Positions 13,989 to 23,994 of a stretch of DNA of 64,000 bases are shown piece after piece (position 1 is the stretch's first letter; the number at the start of each line of letters is the position of its first letter). The stretch is from Faecalibacterium sp. I3-3-33 (GTDB lineage Bacteria > Bacillota > Clostridia > Oscillospirales > Ruminococcaceae), in assembly GCF_023347295.1 (NCBI RefSeq), contig NZ_CP094469.1, positions 1 through 64,000 on the forward strand, written 5' to 3'. The position numbers were made by a program, and so were the translations under genes. A model generated the notes under the pieces. It did no database searches and was not told where the DNA came from. It saw nothing but the letters and a program-made list of their open reading frames with translations.

Positions 13989-14027
13989 CGTAACGGGAAA
14001 CGGCAGCTGCCGCGCTCGCTCCCCCTT

Positions 14028-14250
14028 GGGGGAGCTGTCGCGCAGCGACTGAGGGGTTATAGATGGAGAAGCGAAAAAAGCGTTAAAGCGCTAGCGCCGA
14101 CTGGCGCAGCGCTAGCTTTTTTGTGCTTCGACTTCTTCTTCAGGATTGTCAAGGGCGTGTAGCCCTTGGCCCGTTGCGGGGTGGGTGGAGTCCAGAGGTA
14201 GGGAGGGGGGAGTCGGAACACCCCTCCCTGCCTCTGGCCCAGCGGAGCGT
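14028..14250. repeat. 223-bp repeat, copy 1
   Basis: Nearly identical over its whole length to 23722-23944 (seven differences seen by eye). It starts with the common GGGGGAGCTGTCGCGCAGCG word, then a GC-rich hairpin with a T6 run (AGCGCTAGCGCC/GGCGCAGCGCT), then an ACCCCTCCC-rich part. No coding sign is seen. The rest of 13768-14465 outside R2 and this repeat holds only shorter repeat-like pieces. Confidence 0.8.
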
Positions 14251-14465
14251 CCCTGCACGCTTGCGACAAGTAGGAACTTCCCGGCTAAAGTGCAAAGCTT
14301 GCGCACGCGCCAGAGGCTCCCTCTTGCGAAAAAAATCACAATTTCTGGAAGCGACGGTGGGCAAAAACCGAAAATCTGCATCACTGCTTGCTTTAGCGCA
14401 CTAAAGAAAGTACAAAACCGCTAAAAAATTTCTTAATTTTTGGTGCGTTTGTCGGGCGGTTTGCG

Positions 14466-18353: not shown

Positions 18354-18549
18354 AGGGGCTTGAGATACCAAAGCGCCCGCGAGGGCCCTTGAGAGCACAC
18401 CCCGCGTGTGTCAGGAGCATAAGGTCTGCGTGCAGATACCTTGCTCCGCCTGCGGCATAAGACCTGCTGTGCAGGGATCTTGCCCCAGTGAAAAAACTGC
18501 ATCAGTTTTTAGCGCCCCGTTCACCGCAAGGTGACCGGGGCGTATTTTT
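18354..18549 (+). ncRNA. Candidate structured RNA downstream of nifJ
   Basis: A multi-branched fold is closed by GGGGC (18355) with GCCCC (18482), next to GAGAT/ATCTT. It encloses GCCC-GCGA-GGGC (18375-18386), CACAC/GTGTG (18396/18406) and a long hairpin GGAGC...GCTCC (18414-18447). A terminator with a GCAA tetraloop and T5 follows at 18513-18549. It may be a free RNA or a nifJ 3' UTR. I see no match to 6S, tmRNA, RNase P or SRP RNA. 18140-18353 shows nothing I can name. Confidence 0.4.
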
Positions 18550-18652
18550 GTGCGCGTCAACCAAGAAGCTTATCACAAAATCTTCCAGAATTTTCCGCTT
18601 CCTTTTTACAGTTTCTTCATAGCTTCTTAACGAAATGAATTGTAAAAGCTGT

Positions 18653-18782
18653 TATACTTTTGCCATGGGAAGCGGGGCCGCAACCACTTCCCAAGTAACA
18701 TGATTCCTCCTCACACCAAGGCAATATCCAAGCAAAACACCCTTCTCTGTGCGCCGCAACACGGAGAAGGGTGTTTTGTTTC
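18653..18782 (+). ncRNA. Small RNA, paralogue A (with promoter and terminator)
   Basis: An extended -10 (TGTTATACT, box 18653-18658) gives a start near 18665. The transcript begins with a hairpin of arms GGGAAGCGG and CCACTTCCC around GGCCGCAA. An unpaired C-rich segment containing ATTCCTCCTCAC follows, then an intrinsic terminator (AAAACACCCTTCTC with its complement, 18734-18777, then TTGTTT). The same layout and two near-identical blocks occur on the minus strand at 23364-23499. CCUCC can pair with Shine-Dalgarno sites, so a role as an antisense regulator of translation is inferred. Confidence 0.7.
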
Positions 18783-18824
18783 TGTAAGACGTTGCAAAAA
18801 TCTTTGCAAAACTTCGCTTTAGGG

Positions 18825-18853
18825 TTGACCCTATTTTTTTGCGGCGCTATAAT
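18825..18853 (+). promoter_or_regulatory. mgtE promoter
   Basis: -35 TTGACC (18825-18830), spacer of exactly 17, -10 TATAAT (18848-18853). It starts a leader of about 330 bases ahead of mgtE. Confidence 0.85.
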
Positions 18854-18859
18854 AAAAAA

Positions 18860-19189
18860 GGATATAGCCAGTGCAGCGCCCGGCGCGGGTGCTGCGGCTG
18901 CGGAATTTACGAAAATTGGGAGGTGAACGCAGGACAATGGACCCTGATCATAGTCGAAGTAGATCCACCGATGCGGTAGATCGGACAACAAAAAGTACTG
19001 CGTTCGCCTTTTTGCATCCGGCGGCTTAAAAAGCCCCCGGTATAGGAAAGGCGCGGCTTTGCGTGCGCGGAAATGGCTGCATTTGCGGCATTCCGGCACC
19101 GGGCGGCGCGTTTTTTGTTTCCCGACCTGCTGCATCCTCCGGCGCGGAGAAAGCGCTCCGTGCCGTATAGTACCCAGAGGAGGTAGCCC
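18860..19189 (+). promoter_or_regulatory. Structured leader / attenuator upstream of mgtE
   Basis: AGGTGAACGCAG (18921-18932) pairs with CTGCGTTCGCCT (18998-19009), followed by TTTTT, so the hairpin can work as a terminator. Its 65-base interior folds further (CCGAT/ATCGG, TGGA/TCCA) and repeats GTAGATC. A domain held inside a terminator stem ahead of a Mg2+ transporter gene fits a metal-responsive attenuator. It does not show the M-box consensus. Downstream bases to 19189 include more GC-rich pairing and the GAGGAGG RBS. Confidence 0.5.
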
Positions 19190-20764
19190 ATGGATATGGA
19201 AGAAAAGAAGCTGGAAACCAACACGGAACAGAACCTGCCGGTGCAGGAGCTGCCCGCCGATATCCCCGCCGAGGTGCGTCAGAAGCTGGCGGAGGATCTG
19301 AACGAGGAAGCCACCGAGGATCTGAAGCAGGATATGCGGGAGGCAGAGCGGGAGGAAGCCAATGACGAAGAGGTCAAGGCAAACCCCGAGATGCTGACCA
19401 AGAGCCGTCTGCTGAAGCTGCTGATCAAAAAGCAGTACGTCAAGCTGCGCGAGGTGACTGAGGAAGAGCAGCCCGCCGACTTAGCCGAGCTGCTGGAGGA
19501 ACTGGACGAGAACAACCGTCTGGTGGTGTTCCGTCTGCTGAAAAAGGAAGTTGCCACCGAAGCTTTTGCCTATATGTCCGACGAAGCCCGGGACGATCTG
19601 GTAAACGCCTTCTCGGACGTGGAGTTGGTGAGCGCCATCGAGGAGATGAGCCTTGACGATGCCGCCGACCTGCTGGAAGATATGCCCGCGGGCGTGGTCA
19701 AGCGGGTGCTGGAAAAATCCTCCCGGGAGACCCGCGAGAGCCTGAACAAGCTGCTGAACTACCCGGAAAGCTCTGCCGGCAGCCTGATGACCCCGGAATA
19801 TGTGCGTCTGCGCAGGGATATGACGGTGGAACAGGCCTTTGCCGCCATCCGCAAGCAGGGCGAGAACGCCGAGACCGTCTACACCTGCTATGTGGTAGAG
19901 AGCAACCGGCTGCAGGGCGTTGTCTCTGCCCGCAATCTGCTGCTGGCAGACCCCAAGACCCCCATCACGGAGATCATGGATGATAATCTGGTCACCGTGA
20001 AGGTCACCGACGATCAGGAGTTCGTGGCGCGTGAGATGCAGCGCTACGACTTTACCGCCATGCCCGTTCTGGACAACGAGGGCATGTTCGTGGGTATCAT
20101 CACCATCGACGATGCCATCGACGTTCTGACCGACGAGAGCACCGAGGATATGCAGAAGATGGCCGCCATTCTCCCGGATGACGACGCCACCACCTACTTC
20201 GGCACCAGTGTGTGGACCCACGCCAAGCAGCGCATCCCTTGGCTGCTGATCCTGATGCTGTCCGCTACCTTTACCGGCATGGTCACCACCCACTACGAGG
20301 AAGCCTTTGTCAGCCTGCCGCTGCTGGTCTCCTTCATGCCCATGCTGATGGATACCGCCGGTAACTGCGGCAACCAGATCAGCACCCTGATGGTGCGCGG
20401 TCTGGCACTGGGCGAGGTAGAGCCTGCCGACTTTATGCGGGTGCTGGGCAAGGAGCTGCGGGTGTCTGCCATCGTGGGCGCAGTGCTGGGCATCGTGAAC
20501 GGCCTGCGCATCTACCTGATGTACACCTTCCTCTTCCCCGGCCAGTACGCCAACGTGATAGGCTACGCCATCGTGGTCAGCGTGTCGCTGTTCTTCAGCG
20601 TCATTCTGGCAAAGCTGGTGGGCGGTATGCTGCCGCTTGCCGCCAAAAAGCTGGGTGCCGACCCCGCCATCATGGCTACCCCCTTCATCACCACCATTGT
20701 GGACGCTTGCAGCCTGATCCTCTATTTCCAGATCGCACAGCTGGTGTTCCGCAATATGATGTAA
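19190..20764 (+). CDS. mgtE: Magnesium transporter MgtE
   Basis: A dimeric Mg2+ channel of 524 residues, rather long because of a Glu-rich N-terminal extension of about 70 residues. The order is MgtE N domain (residues 75-195), two CBS domains (about 200-320; TPEYVRLRRDMTVEQAF and ITEIMDDNLVTVKVTDDQEFVAREM), a plug helix and five membrane segments from about 345 with PMLMDTAGNCGNQ. CBS and N domains close the pore when Mg2+ is plentiful. ATG 19190 follows GAGGAGG. A structured leader probably controls transcription. Confidence 0.95.
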   Translation: MDMEEKKLETNTEQNLPVQELPADIPAEVRQKLAEDLNEEATEDLKQDMREAEREEANDEEVKANPEMLTKSRLLKLLIKKQYVKLREVTEEEQPADLAELLEELDENNRLVVFRLLKKEVATEAFAYMSDEARDDLVNAFSDVELVSAIEEMSLDDAADLLEDMPAGVVKRVLEKSSRETRESLNKLLNYPESSAGSLMTPEYVRLRRDMTVEQAFAAIRKQGENAETVYTCYVVESNRLQGVVSARNLLLADPKTPITEIMDDNLVTVKVTDDQEFVAREMQRYDFTAMPVLDNEGMFVGIITIDDAIDVLTDESTEDMQKMAAILPDDDATTYFGTSVWTHAKQRIPWLLILMLSATFTGMVTTHYEEAFVSLPLLVSFMPMLMDTAGNCGNQISTLMVRGLALGEVEPADFMRVLGKELRVSAIVGAVLGIVNGLRIYLMYTFLFPGQYANVIGYAIVVSVSLFFSVILAKLVGGMLPLAAKKLGADPAIMATPFITTIVDACSLILYFQIAQLVFRNMM

Positions 20765-20774
20765 AGAAAAAAGC

Positions 20775-20810
20775 AATGCCGGACGGTCTGCGGACCGCCC
20801 GGCATTTTTT
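20775..20810 (+). terminator. Intrinsic terminator after mgtE
   Basis: ATGCCGG pairs with CCGGCAT around an inner CGGTC-TGCG-GACCG hairpin (UNCG-type loop), followed by TTTTTT. Confidence 0.9.
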
Positions 20811-20825
20811 GCGGGGAGTTCAGGC

Positions 20826-20963
20826 AAGTACCCCCTCAGGCGCTGCGCGCCAGCTCCCCCAAGGGGACGCCTTTGCGCTATGCCGGAAACTTTATCGTCA
20901 CCACCAAAAGCCGTCCCCTTGGGGAAGGTGGCATCGCCGCAGGCGATGACGGAAGGGGTAACT
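20826..20963. repeat. MITE-like palindromic repeat
   Basis: The ends are TACCCCCTCAGGCGCTGCG on the left and ATGACGGAAGGGGTA on the right, imperfect inverted ends with CCCCAAGGGG and CCCCTTGGGG inside. Related words (CCCCTCAGTC, GCGATGACGG) recur near 14010, 23620, 23740, 30711 and 30960. Confidence 0.6.
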
Positions 20964-20992
20964 CCCCCGCCGCGCCTGCGGGATAAAAACAG

Positions 20993-21429
20993 TGTGGAAA
21001 ACCACCGTTTGCGTCCGTTTTCCACACCGGGTTTTTCTCCCCGGCGGTTTGTGGAAAACTGCCCGGGGTAAGATTCCAGATTGGAGAAAAGCAAACCCGT
21101 AAGCCGGAGTAAACTGTAAAAACAAAAGAAAAACCTTCGACTTTCTTTTTTATAAAAGGCAGAATGCCCACATTTTAGCCCACAAATTTCCAGAATGCGG
21201 CGGCATCCATTACGGCTTGTATAGGACTTTCCTCTATTGGATGTGGAAAACTATGTGGAAAAGGTGGAAAACATCGTTGGAAACTGCGCCTCTTTTTCAC
21301 AAAAACGGTGGAAAACCCGGTGGAAAAAGTGAAAAGTTCATTCCAGACCGGATAATCCATACAATTTTCGGTTGTCGTTTTGGGACTTGAAACCCGCATG
21401 AATGCTGTGCTTTTCCCGCCTTTTCCACA
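20993..21429. other. Cluster of DnaA-box-like 9-mers
   Basis: Six perfect TTTTCCACA/TGTGGAAAA sites lie at 20993, 21018, 21050, 21242, 21254 and 21421. Near-matches GGTGGAAAA are at 21263, 21307 and 21319. These match the family better than the boxes in the dnaA-dnaN gap. The stretch is non-coding, between mgtE and the rhomboid-like gene. A role in DnaA titration or in a second origin part is inferred. Confidence 0.5.
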
Positions 21430-21595
21430 CCCCGGCGGTTTCGGGGTGAAAAAACTGCGCGTGCAGTCTGTCTGCCGGGAAAGAAAGCACAGTTTCACCG
21501 CCTTCCGCGTGGATTTTCTTGAATGCGGGGGACTGTCATGGTAAAATAGGGGTAACATGAAACTGGCGGGGCATCCCGCAACGGAGGCGAAACAC

Positions 21596-22240
21596 ATGAA
21601 CAACTGGCTGAATAAGCTGGAGCGCAAGTATGGCCGCTACGGAATCCCGAATCTGACCAATATTCTGGTGGCGGGGCAGATTCTGGTATTGGCCATCGAG
21701 CTGTTTATTGACCGCACCATCCCCTACTGGCTGGGGCTCAGCCGCAGCCTGCTGCTGCAGGGGCAGGTCTGGCGGGTGATCAGCTTTATCTTCATCCCCT
21801 TTTCCGGCGGCAGCATCCTCAGCGTGGTGTTGGGCATCTACTTCACATGGTTCATCGGCACGGCGCTGGAACGGGAGTGGGGCGATTTCCGCTACACGGT
21901 GTATCTGCTGTCCGGTGTGCTGGGCACGGTGCTGGGCTGTCTGCTCACCGGCGTGACCGCCAGCACCTACTGCCTGTCCCTCTCGCTGCTGCTGGCCTTT
22001 GCCATGCTGTACCCGGAGGTGCAGCTGCTGCTCTTCTTCGTCATCCCCATCCGGGTGAAGTATTTCGGCGTTTTTGCAGCGGTGCTGTGGGTATTCAGCT
22101 TTCTGGGCGCTTCCCTGCCCGGCAAGCTGGACTACCTGCTGTCCATGCTCAACGTCTGGCTCTTCTTTGTCCCCATGGCCTACCGCTCTCTCCGCGCATG
22201 GATGCGCCGGGAGCAGTGGAAGAGAAAAAATAGGAGATAA
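21596..22240 (+). CDS. Rhomboid-like membrane protein without visible catalytic residues
   Basis: A 214-residue polytopic protein with about six membrane segments. FIPFSGGSILSVVLGIYFTWFIGTALEREWGDFRY resembles the rhomboid region in which a helix pair precedes a conserved Glu-x-x-Trp-Gly motif. The catalytic GxSG serine and histidine of rhomboid proteases are not seen (GVTASTYC stands in the likely place), so it is probably a pseudoprotease or only distantly related. ATG 21596 follows ACGGAGG; the upstream in-frame ATG lacks an RBS. Confidence 0.7.
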   Translation: MNNWLNKLERKYGRYGIPNLTNILVAGQILVLAIELFIDRTIPYWLGLSRSLLLQGQVWRVISFIFIPFSGGSILSVVLGIYFTWFIGTALEREWGDFRYTVYLLSGVLGTVLGCLLTGVTASTYCLSLSLLLAFAMLYPEVQLLLFFVIPIRVKYFGVFAAVLWVFSFLGASLPGKLDYLLSMLNVWLFFVPMAYRSLRAWMRREQWKRKNRR

Positions 22241-22242
22241 GA

Positions 22243-22360
22243 ACCCTCCCGTGAAAATGGAATACCGGAGCGTCCGCAGACGCTCCGGTATTCCGAAATT
22301 AAAAATAAATCTTCCGCTATTCATGCGCAGAGCGAAGCGGAGCGCATTCTAAATCGTTTT
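22243..22360 (+). repeat. Two-hairpin intergenic repeat, copy R3
   Basis: Forward copy: CCCTCCCGTGAAAATG lead, 15-bp perfect stem GAATACCGGAGCGTC around CGCA, an AAATTAAAAATAAATC linker, and a second hairpin ATGCGC/GCGCAT ending in TAAATCGTTTT. Confidence 0.85.
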
Positions 22361-22391
22361 ACGACCGTCTCACAAAAGGAGTACCCTCATC

Positions 22392-23357
22392 ATGATGCTG
22401 GACCGCATGGAAGGCAACGCAGAACTGAAAACCAGTGTGCAGCAGATGCTGGCCACCCGGCGGCTGACCCACAGCGTGCTGCTGGTGGGCGAAGCCGGAC
22501 TTGGTACCGGCTTTGCCGCCCGCTGCATCGCCGCCGACTACCTCTACCCGGCGGGCGGTGCCGCCGCCGAGGCGCTGCTGCGGGGCGAGTGCTGCCGCGC
22601 CGTGGCAAAGGCCGGTAAGCGCGACAGCGGCACGGTGGAGACCGGCATCGTGCGGGAAGCCATCTCGGTGTCCGGTATGGGCAGCGGCGGAAAGTATCTG
22701 GTGGGTCAGGTCACCGCCATGCGCAGCGAGATTTTCAACACCAGCCTTTCCGCCGAGGGGCGCGCCGTGCTTTTGTACCATGTGGAGCGGATGAACGAGG
22801 AATCCGCCAACGCCCTGCTGAAGGTGATGGAGGAGCCGCCGGAGGGGGTGCTGTTCCTGCTCACGGCGGATTCTCTGGCCAGTGTGCTGCCCACCATCCG
22901 CAGCCGCTGCGTCAGCTTTGCGGTGGCACCGGTGTCCCCCGCCGACTGCACCCGCTACTGCGCGGCGCAGGGGGTGGACAAAAAAACAGCCGCACTGTAC
23001 AGTGAGCTGTTCGATGGTCATATCGGCACGGTGCTGGCTGCCGCCCGGGACGAAGCCCGCGCTGCACAGGTGGAAAAAGCGCTGGAGCTTGCCCGCGCCG
23101 CTGCCGCCCGGGACAGCTACACCGCCGCCGTGCTGCTTGCCGCCTTTGAAAAGGATAAAGCTGCTGCCGCCGCCCTGCTGACCGATTTTCGCGCCGTGGC
23201 AGCGGCGGGACTGCGCAGCAGCCCCCGCGCCCCGGTGCAGGGCACACAGGCGCGGCAGGCGGTGCGTCTGGCAGACGCCGCCTTGCAGCGGCTGGGCGCA
23301 CAGGTGAACCCCAAGGTGGTGCTTTCGGTGTTCGCGGCAAAGCTGCGCACCCTTTAA
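22392..23357 (+). CDS. holB: DNA polymerase III subunit delta prime
   Basis: A clamp-loader subunit of 321 residues, close to family length. The N-terminal AAA+-like domain has LLVGEAGLGTGFAARCIA and NEESANALLKVMEEPPEGVLFLLTADSLASVLPTIRSRC, the hallmark SRC motif being near residue 176. The Cys cluster of the usual zinc module is reduced (ECC only), and the Walker A is degenerate as expected for delta prime. AAAGGAG lies at 22374-22380. A second ATG follows directly and could also be the start. Its strong downstream hairpin is shared with small RNA B on the other strand. Confidence 0.9.
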   Translation: MMLDRMEGNAELKTSVQQMLATRRLTHSVLLVGEAGLGTGFAARCIAADYLYPAGGAAAEALLRGECCRAVAKAGKRDSGTVETGIVREAISVSGMGSGGKYLVGQVTAMRSEIFNTSLSAEGRAVLLYHVERMNEESANALLKVMEEPPEGVLFLLTADSLASVLPTIRSRCVSFAVAPVSPADCTRYCAAQGVDKKTAALYSELFDGHIGTVLAAARDEARAAQVEKALELARAAAARDSYTAAVLLAAFEKDKAAAAALLTDFRAVAAAGLRSSPRAPVQGTQARQAVRLADAALQRLGAQVNPKVVLSVFAAKLRTL

Positions 23358-23363
23358 AAAATA

Positions 23364-23499
23364 ACAGAACAACAAGAACCCCCTCCGGCGCTTGCGGTAC
23401 ACCGGAGGGGGTTCTTGTTTGGGGTATTGCTTTGGTGTGAGGAGGAATCATGTGCGGGGAAGTGGTTGCGGCCCCACTGTCCCTGCAAGATACAGTATA
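23364..23499 (-). ncRNA. Small RNA, paralogue B (with promoter and bidirectional terminator)
   Basis: On the minus strand a -35 ATGACT (23517-23522) and -10 TATACT (23494-23499) are 17 bases apart. The transcript, from about 23488, has a hairpin of arms GGGA(C)AGTGG and CCACTTCCC around GGCCGCAA, the unpaired ATTCCTCCTCAC segment, and an 18-bp terminator stem (23371-23388 with 23402-23419) with T tracts on both strands. A G-to-A change in one arm, relative to paralogue A, turns a mismatch into a pair, which supports the fold. On the plus strand the stem also ends holB. Confidence 0.7.
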
Positions 23500-23615
23500 C
23501 CCGATTTTACGAAAAAAGTCATTACATTTCTGTGAAAAATCAAAAAAGTTCTTGAAACTTTGTACCGCAGTGCGAAAAAAATACAAAATGAAACGTTTAA
23601 GAAGAAAAACGAACC

Positions 23616-23716
23616 CCCTCAGTCTCGCTGCGCTCGCCAGCTCCCCCAAGGGGGCGCCTTTTGAGGTGGAGGTAAAGTTTCCGGCTAAACCGCAAAGTTT
23701 GCGAGCGCAGCCGCTC
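23616..23716. repeat. GC-rich palindromic repeat pieces
   Basis: CCCCCTCAGTCTCGCTGCG and CTCCCCCAAGGGGGC belong to the same family as the elements at 20826 and 30709. The stretch joins directly to the 223-bp repeat copy 2. No coding sign. Confidence 0.5.
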
Positions 23717-23721
23717 CCCCG

Positions 23722-23944
23722 GGGGGAGCTGTCGCGCAGCGACTGAGGGGCTATAAATGGAGAAGCGAAAAAAGCGTTAAAGCGATAGCGCCGACTGGCG
23801 CAGCGCTAGCTTTTTTGTGCTTCGACTTCTTCTTTAGGATTGTTAAGGGCGTGCAGCCCTTGACCCGTTGCGGGGTGGGTGGAGTCCAGAGGTAGGGAGG
23901 GGGGAGTCGGAACACCCCTCCCTGCCTCTGGCCCAGCGGAGCGT
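23722..23944. repeat. 223-bp repeat, copy 2
   Basis: Same length as, and about 97 percent identical by eye to, 14028-14250, including the T6-tailed hairpin. Confidence 0.8.
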
Positions 23945-23994
23945 TCCAGCCCGCTGCTGGCAAGCAGTAACTTCCCCCGCGCAGCGCCGCACGC

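Follow-up and report, generated by a model that had tools for sequence, protein, structure and literature searches.

The window studied here, 64,000 nucleotides from the start of contig NZ_CP094469.1 of Faecalibacterium sp. I3-3-33, contains two copies of a conserved and structured RNA that are preceded by operator-like repeats, with similar repeats lying before phosphate genes, and that carry a sequence complementary to both a Shine-Dalgarno element and a start codon. The explanation that we favor, and that we consider fairly probable, is that these are members of a family of trans-acting small RNAs that is activated by PhoP and blocks the initiation of translation under phosphate starvation.

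Architecture and fold of the two copies

Copy A (18653-18782, + strand) and copy B (23364-23499, - strand) are both present where an earlier note on this DNA had placed them, and reading and aligning the two sequences recovers the features that it listed as shared, namely a -10 box TATACT, a 5' hairpin, the block ACATGATTCCTCCTCACACCAA and a terminator stem. The order is the same in both copies, with TATACT followed within a few bases by the hairpin, then by ACATGATTCCTCCTCACACCAA.GCAATA.CC and finally by a long terminator stem. The two loci had been called unlinked, a description that does not hold as they are just 4.7 kb apart, and the terminators, said to be unrelated between copies, are not wholly so since the loop CCGCAA is common to both.

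In copy A the -10 box TATACT (18653-18658, +) lies 48 bp 3' of the first upstream repeat; a good -35 element is absent, and no sigma-70 -35/-10 pair was called at this promoter. Taking the 5' end from the position of the -10 box, the RNA would extend from 18662 to 18784 (+) and would include a 5' hairpin (18666-18693, +), seen in both fold and covariation, with loop GGCCGCAA; an unpaired block CATGATTCCTCCTCACACCAA (18699-18719, +) in which the anti-AUG triplet CAT is 4 nt from the anti-SD CCTCCTC; and an intrinsic terminator stem (18730-18781, +) that is evident from the fold, has CCGCAA in its loop and was missed by a simple terminator scan. For copy B the -10 box TATACT is at 23494-23499 (-) and the RNA, with its 5' end derived in the same way, would span 23366-23487 (-), with a 5' hairpin from the fold (23453-23487, -), the unpaired block ACATGATTCCTCCTCACACCAA (23432-23453, -), a second C-rich motif AATACCCC that lies 3' of the block and reaches to about 23421 (-), and an intrinsic terminator (23371-23419, -) whose loop again includes CCGCAA. 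Scores with covariance model R1 are 102.8 bits for copy A and 134 bits for copy B, both of which belong to the R1 training set, and the same model locates a third copy in this genome at 628208-628337 (+).

Copy A is flanked by genes for pyruvate:ferredoxin oxidoreductase and mgtE, and copy B by a DNA polymerase III delta'-type gene and a hexapeptide-repeat protein gene. Two further features of the surroundings were recorded. A structured leader occurs 5' of mgtE (18905-19020, +), with a long stem ending CTGCGTTCGCCTTTTT and a fold z of -3.1; it has no Rfam match above threshold and might be a metal-responsive attenuator. In addition, a dispersed repeat of 261 nt is found at 14022-14282 and 23716-23976 of the window (93% identical), the second occurrence being just 5' of the copy B promoter region.

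The predicted folds are stable, -51.9 kcal/mol (z -6.5) for copy A and -59.7 kcal/mol (z -7.1) for copy B, with 0 of 200 shuffles equally good in either case. In an alignment of 95 copies 93.1% of the paired cells can pair, as compared with 62.6% after shuffling, and the covariation score is 0.756, versus 0.206 for shuffled alignments and 0.06-0.17 for slid structures; neither value is attained in any of 500 shuffles. Across families (38 copies) the covariation score is 0.922 against 0.205 shuffled, and because the alignments were fitted to the structure all of these comparisons are biased towards it. Changes on both sides of the stem occur in 16 of 16 pairs, which is weak evidence alone, as shuffles average 13.6. 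Both the hairpin and the terminator covary strongly in the sets of 95 and 38 copies, bearing out the earlier observation that hairpin pairing is kept despite changes. Within the genus (52 copies, alignment A2) the hairpin loop GCCGCAA does not vary and the terminator loop CCGCAA scarcely does; several representatives of other genera have a terminator loop that lacks CCGCAA. That CCGCAA recurs in the loops of both the 5' hairpin and the terminator, as seen in the two window copies and in their genus relatives, may be due to a protein site or to loop stability.

Distribution of the family

When the own 3.0 Mb genome is searched with the core 20-mer ATGATTCCTCCTCACACCAA, allowing up to 3 mismatches, sites are found only at copies A and B, both exact, and the reversed control gives 0 sites. 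A 140-base BLASTN query produces matches in 30 of the 31 genomes of the genus, own included, and ACATGATTCCTCCT is invariant in the 52 genus copies of A2. Left out before this alignment was made were L001, L002 and L060 (repeat places), L054 (cut off) and the identical copies L004, L005, L008, L024 and L035; window copy B was put in by hand.

Beyond the genus, model R1 detects the RNA in 47 of the 297 genomes of the family sample, corresponding to 17 of 126 genera. Each of the 42 carriers outside the genus has a single match and the five genus carriers have one to three, so that the extra copies look like an expansion within the genus. A scan of named genomes with the pattern CCGCAR-N8-28-CATGATTCCTCCTCA returned at least 120 stretches, with Faecalibacterium, Gemmiger, Subdoligranulum, Fournierella, Ruthenibacterium, Anaerofilum and Pygmaiobacter among the matches listed; of the 80 named stretches listed, 13 were inspected. 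Five of these 13, which come from Solobacterium, Spongiactinospora, Burkholderiales, Nocardia and an actinobacterial MAG, have neither hairpin nor operator and are taken as chance.

At E up to 0.05, model R2 gives matches in 35 of 394 order-level genomes. Beyond the family we accept 12 genomes of one other family (f24) on the basis of the hairpin, the C-rich letters and, mostly, the operator and, less surely, one f9 genome; the f9 locus L294 has the hairpin and the C-rich letters but a score of only 3.0 with the operator PWM described below. The usual core outside the family is CAUGUUCUACCCUCCUCA..ACCCCUCAA, in which the anti-SD and the second C-rich motif are retained. In alignment A6, which has 11 order-level copies, CAU stands at a spacing of 7 from the anti-SD in seven copies, of 6 in one and of 4 in L165, and the other two have no CAU; it is also missing, by eye, in L314. 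This last locus, of f24, is the one credible addition from model R3, which gives matches in 16 of 391 genomes of the class and no credible member outside the order. Eight class-level matches in other families (L315-L322; PWM at most 1.9) look like chance, as do L304, L305 and L307-L313 from the order search, while L306 has the GGAGCCGCAACC hairpin and no operator; six further low rows of the order search were left out of the inspection. The large searches were run with stricter filters, and weak members may be missed. Two genomes of the second family have, next to the sRNA gene (L299 and L302), a gene that by eye would encode a LexA-like protein.

A covariance-model search of relatives had been proposed as a check of the original description, and with R1, R2 and R3 the family is indeed kept, hairpin and C-rich block included. 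What had been suggested was a new sRNA family of this genus; the family does appear to be new, and it is not confined to the genus, being present in 17 of 126 genera and in a second family of the order.

Operator-like repeats and the phosphate genes

The promoters of the 95 copies are preceded by repeats of the type TTTACA-N5-TTCAYA-N5-TTNAYA with a period of 11 bp, often followed by a fourth repeat, TNCGCA. The best triple begins at a distance of exactly 48 nt 5' of the -10 box in 83 of 95 copies, and at this fixed place 78 of 95 score at least 16 of 18. Of the 17 that fall below 16, three (L020, L081 and L084, all included in the PWM) do so because the script had misplaced their -10 box; the others are copy B, the copies most closely related to it, and the third-copy type as found in two genomes. 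At copy A the putative operator (18605-18632, +) reads TTTACA-N5-TTCATA-N5-TTAACG and is clean; at copy B (23509-23536, -) it is degraded, TTCACA-N5-GTAATG-N5-TTTCGT, scoring 14 of 18 at the fixed place with TTCACA as its sole clean hexamer.

A PWM was built from 47 non-redundant copies. In a scan of the window copy A scores 44.7 and copy B, which belongs to the PWM training set, 48.5, with the next site at just 10.2. A wider scan, covering 864 kb of the own genome together with two additional loci and using gene calls from a simple script, places copy B first, followed by copy A, the third copy (41.5; like copy B, part of the training set), a tat operon (27.9) and a site at 23.8, with the remainder lower; this next-best PHO-box-like site of the own-genome sample is at G000:C1:454575 (+; L358:19576) and reads GGATATACTAA. 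Relatives outside the family, which did not contribute to the training set, score between 18.2 and 52.6 at the expected place in 10 of 14 cases, two of these ten (L297 and L298) having the same promoter, and the remaining four score 17.5 (L165), 12.1 (L295), 3.3 (L166) and 3.0 (L294). Nine chance matches do not exceed 7.6 anywhere. PHO boxes are described in PMC4415409 as 11-nt tandem direct repeats upstream of the promoter in many bacteria, and an 11-nt tandem repeat of this kind is found at both window copies, clean at A and degraded at B.

Searching with the strict triple and at most 1 mismatch gives 4 sites in the own genome versus 2 in the reversed control, including copy A and the tat operon, and 38 sites in ten other genomes versus 18, nine of the 38 being sRNA promoters. 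Among the frames read downstream of the non-sRNA triple sites are Na/Pi cotransporter genes from two genera and the tatA gene of another Faecalibacterium genome; many other sites in the ten genomes precede genes without an evident phosphate role. At Na/Pi cotransporter loci a stricter repeat pair is located 5' of 12 of 28 (10 forward, 2 reverse) versus 0 of 111 other windows and a triple of at least 16 at 4 of 28 versus 0 of 139, the controls in this case being taken elsewhere in the same loci, mostly from coding sequence. At pstS the strict pair is present in 4 of 20 windows versus 12 of 660 controls, which derive from the own genome only. After this strict result the pattern was loosened post hoc to TT[ACT]AC-N6-TT[ACT]AC, and with 14 of the 20 pstS loci (partial domain matches L407-L410 and second copies L411 and L412 taken out) it is found in 9 of 14 forward and 2 of 14 in reverse, against 4 and 3 of 661 own-genome controls. 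The corresponding figure for Na/Pi loci is 11 of 28 forward versus 4 of 661, and six other spacings yielded one reverse match at pstS. The sRNA promoters themselves fit the exact TTNAC pair in 42 of 95 copies, the second repeat often being TTCATA. No clear pair was seen at the own-genome pstS or pst operon, nor at pstS of G016 and G055.

The tat operon site (G000:C1:442839-442866, -; L134) lies before two TatA/B-type genes and tatC, and its repeats are 48 bp from a -10 box, as in most sRNA promoters. At a separate locus (L133, G000:C1:192000-208000) PstS and two small lipoprotein-like neighbours start, by eye, with RR-type signal sequences, which suggests that the phosphate-binding protein may be exported via Tat and would fit a PHO box before the tat operon. 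Since similar repeats with an 11-bp period are also found before the tat operon and before many pstS and Na/Pi genes, those of the sRNA promoters are probably PHO boxes.

Pairing block, competing readings and known systems

The complement of the block is GUGAGGAGGAAUCAUG, that is GAGGAGG-AAUC-AUG, a Shine-Dalgarno sequence followed after 4 nt by a start codon. In the family alignment all 95 copies have CAU at exactly 4 nt from CCUCC, and the mean unpaired probability of the anti-SD is 0.80. The reading of the loci as an sRNA with an anti-SD core is supported as far as it goes; the anti-AUG part and the PHO-box-like operator had been missed. In the own-genome sample the duplex energy of the block averages -13.4 at 630 start regions versus -12.0 inside genes, and 30 shuffled blocks average -11.4 (sd 0.97, lowest -13.2). 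Start regions are favored only modestly, and the energies are therefore insufficient to name a target. With up to 3 mismatches GTGAGGAGGAATCATG has 13 non-sRNA sites in the own genome versus 7 for the reversed control, and exact-site and mismatch searches of this genome returned no mRNA with long perfect complementarity. Target prediction, another of the checks proposed, points to SD-directed pairing, with no unique mRNA target found in the own genome. The best-looking start sites, given as leads only, are those of a sigma-70 gene (AGGAGCAGGAATCATG, L118) and of the GGAGGAAUCAUG gene, ABC-transporter-like by eye (L357:8163).

We infer that the RNAs are transcribed, that PhoP is their regulator, that repression is their effect and that mRNAs are their targets. 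In the mechanism we propose, phosphate shortage would lead PhoP, the phosphate response regulator, to turn on RNAs of ~120 nt: PhoP~P would bind the 11-bp-spaced TTNAYA repeats and bring in RNA polymerase at a promoter with a -10 box and only a poor -35 element. The product would consist of the 5' hairpin, the unpaired block and the terminator hairpin. In chosen mRNAs the block CAUGAUUCCUCCUCAC would pair with both the start codon and the Shine-Dalgarno sequence so that ribosome binding is blocked, and the second C-rich motif AUACCCC may lengthen or broaden the pairing. A wider proposal, tentative and rather unlikely, is that this is an RNA arm of the phosphate response in the large group of gut bacteria around Faecalibacterium, in which 1-3 PhoP-driven RNAs, equipped with an ideal anti-SD/anti-AUG block, would lower the translation of many mRNAs simultaneously. 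Were it true, the use of ribosomes, the cell's main phosphorus sink, would be reduced when phosphate runs out, and a translational Pho response would have been maintained across at least two bacterial families. To our knowledge, the small RNAs of Faecalibacterium, Gemmiger, Fournierella and Ruthenibacterium, abundant gut commensals, have been little studied; with the family in 17 of 126 sampled genera and an operator that indicates its signal, the proposal is testable in cultured strains.

The same anti-SD sRNA might instead answer to another OmpR-type regulator, WalR-like or CiaR-like and concerned with envelope stress, and so not be a phosphate RNA, which we judge unlikely. WalR boxes resemble the reverse complement of TTTACA-N5-TTTACA and hence the operator, the repeats are in reverse orientation at two Na/Pi loci, and the operator of copy B is degraded; the second repeat of the sRNA promoters, however, is mostly TTCAYA, which the WalR consensus disallows. 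CiaR likewise reads 6-bp direct repeats at N5 spacing, according to PMC3091779, with the sequence NTTAAG-N5-TTTAAG, and this is not the sequence at the sRNA promoters. The excess of the forward 11-bp motif before pstS and Na/Pi genes over the 661 controls also speaks against this reading. Quite unlikely, in our view, is a role exerted mainly through protein or ribosome binding, with the CCGCAA loops holding a protein or the anti-SD mimicking the 16S 3' end and damping translation overall. It would account for GCCGCAA and CCGCAA being among the most conserved letters in the genus, for the missing unique target in the site and energy searches of the own genome, and for an anti-SD able to pair with very many SDs, but the exact anti-AUG spacing and the conserved flanks (CACACCAA in most copies) are more than a bare SD decoy would require, and the terminator-loop CCGCAA is lost in several genera.

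It is very improbable that the RNA is a cis element, either a 5'-UTR attenuator or a mobile repeat, rather than a separate gene, even with copy A placed 5' of mgtE on the same strand, as copy A and copy B come with a -10 box and terminator stem of their own, the flanks vary between copies and genera, copy B opposes the DNA polymerase III delta' gene, and carrier genomes have few copies, 1-3 in those searched with the covariance model. A small peptide is hardly credible at all. The ATG in the core opens a frame (MIPPHTKAI..), the opposite strand reads as a perfect SD-ATG (ATG at 23450, +) and there are some third-position changes 3' of the core. Against this, by eye the core ATG is not preceded by an SD, downstream of it are indels whose lengths are not divisible by 3, L105-L107 have TAA and L108 has ATA for ATG, wobble positions are invariant too, the opposite-strand frame shifts between copies A and B, and the stem is preserved by two-sided changes; given the frame-breaking indels, the stops, the absent SD and the invariant wobble positions, we reject a peptide on either strand.

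The RNA family does not coincide with any Rfam entry. In the window and 14 relatives tRNAs alone exceed the gathering threshold, in agreement with the earlier note, which had recognised no known family, and 14 matches in 18500-23620 at E up to 5 are all under their gathering scores. RsaE and RoxS, to which the RNA had been likened, use C-rich unpaired motifs to pair with ribosome-binding sites. The present RNA shares a C-rich unpaired motif with them and differs in having no Rfam match, an anti-SD plus anti-AUG block and another operator; since that block lies between two stem-loops under a two-component-type operator they are not the best comparison. Conservation, covariation and the presence of promoter-like and terminator elements of its own, together with the missing Rfam match, support a new anti-SD-core sRNA family, the plan of the csRNAs being closer than that of RsaE/RoxS. 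FsrA of B. subtilis, involved in iron sparing, is a C-rich anti-SD sRNA induced by a nutrient signal. LhrC of Listeria, also C-rich and anti-SD, is induced by an envelope signal; PMC4132741 describes it as multicopy and under LisRK. Compared by description and not by sequence, FsrA and LhrC share the C-rich anti-SD with the present family and differ in the operator; again no Rfam match connects them with it. The PhoP of M. tuberculosis is another regulator, which distinguishes our RNAs from Mcr7, with the likeness, by description only, lying in a connection to both PhoP and Tat. Mcr7 is presented as a PhoP-dependent RNA tied to Tat secretion in PMC4038636, and sRNAs repressing phoB are described for Pseudomonas in PMC12506140. 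Among the literature matches listed there was no small RNA of Faecalibacterium or its relatives and no Bacillota Pho-box sRNA; subscription journals were thinly covered, and such RNAs may be in print elsewhere.

The closest plan is that of the streptococcal, CiaRH-dependent csRNAs, which PMC3091779 describes as present in several copies per genome, each with an unpaired stretch that is complementary to SD and AUG and is bracketed by two stem-loops; their promoters contain direct repeats of 6 bp, spaced by N5, that a two-component regulator recognises. The family reported here likewise has several related copies, two stem-loops, an unpaired anti-SD plus anti-AUG stretch and promoters with 6-bp direct repeats at N5 spacing. 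It differs, in a comparison made by description and not by sequence, in belonging to another order, in an operator of TTTACA/TTCAYA in three or more repeats rather than TTTAAG in two, in its apparent link to phosphate, and in its loop GCCGCAA and core CAUGAUUCCUCCUCACACC. We regard the RNA family as new and its plan, that of an anti-SD/anti-AUG sRNA, as already known; if our explanation is true, the csRNA plan, multicopy anti-SD/anti-AUG RNAs governed by a two-component system, recurs under a different regulator and in a different order of bacteria.
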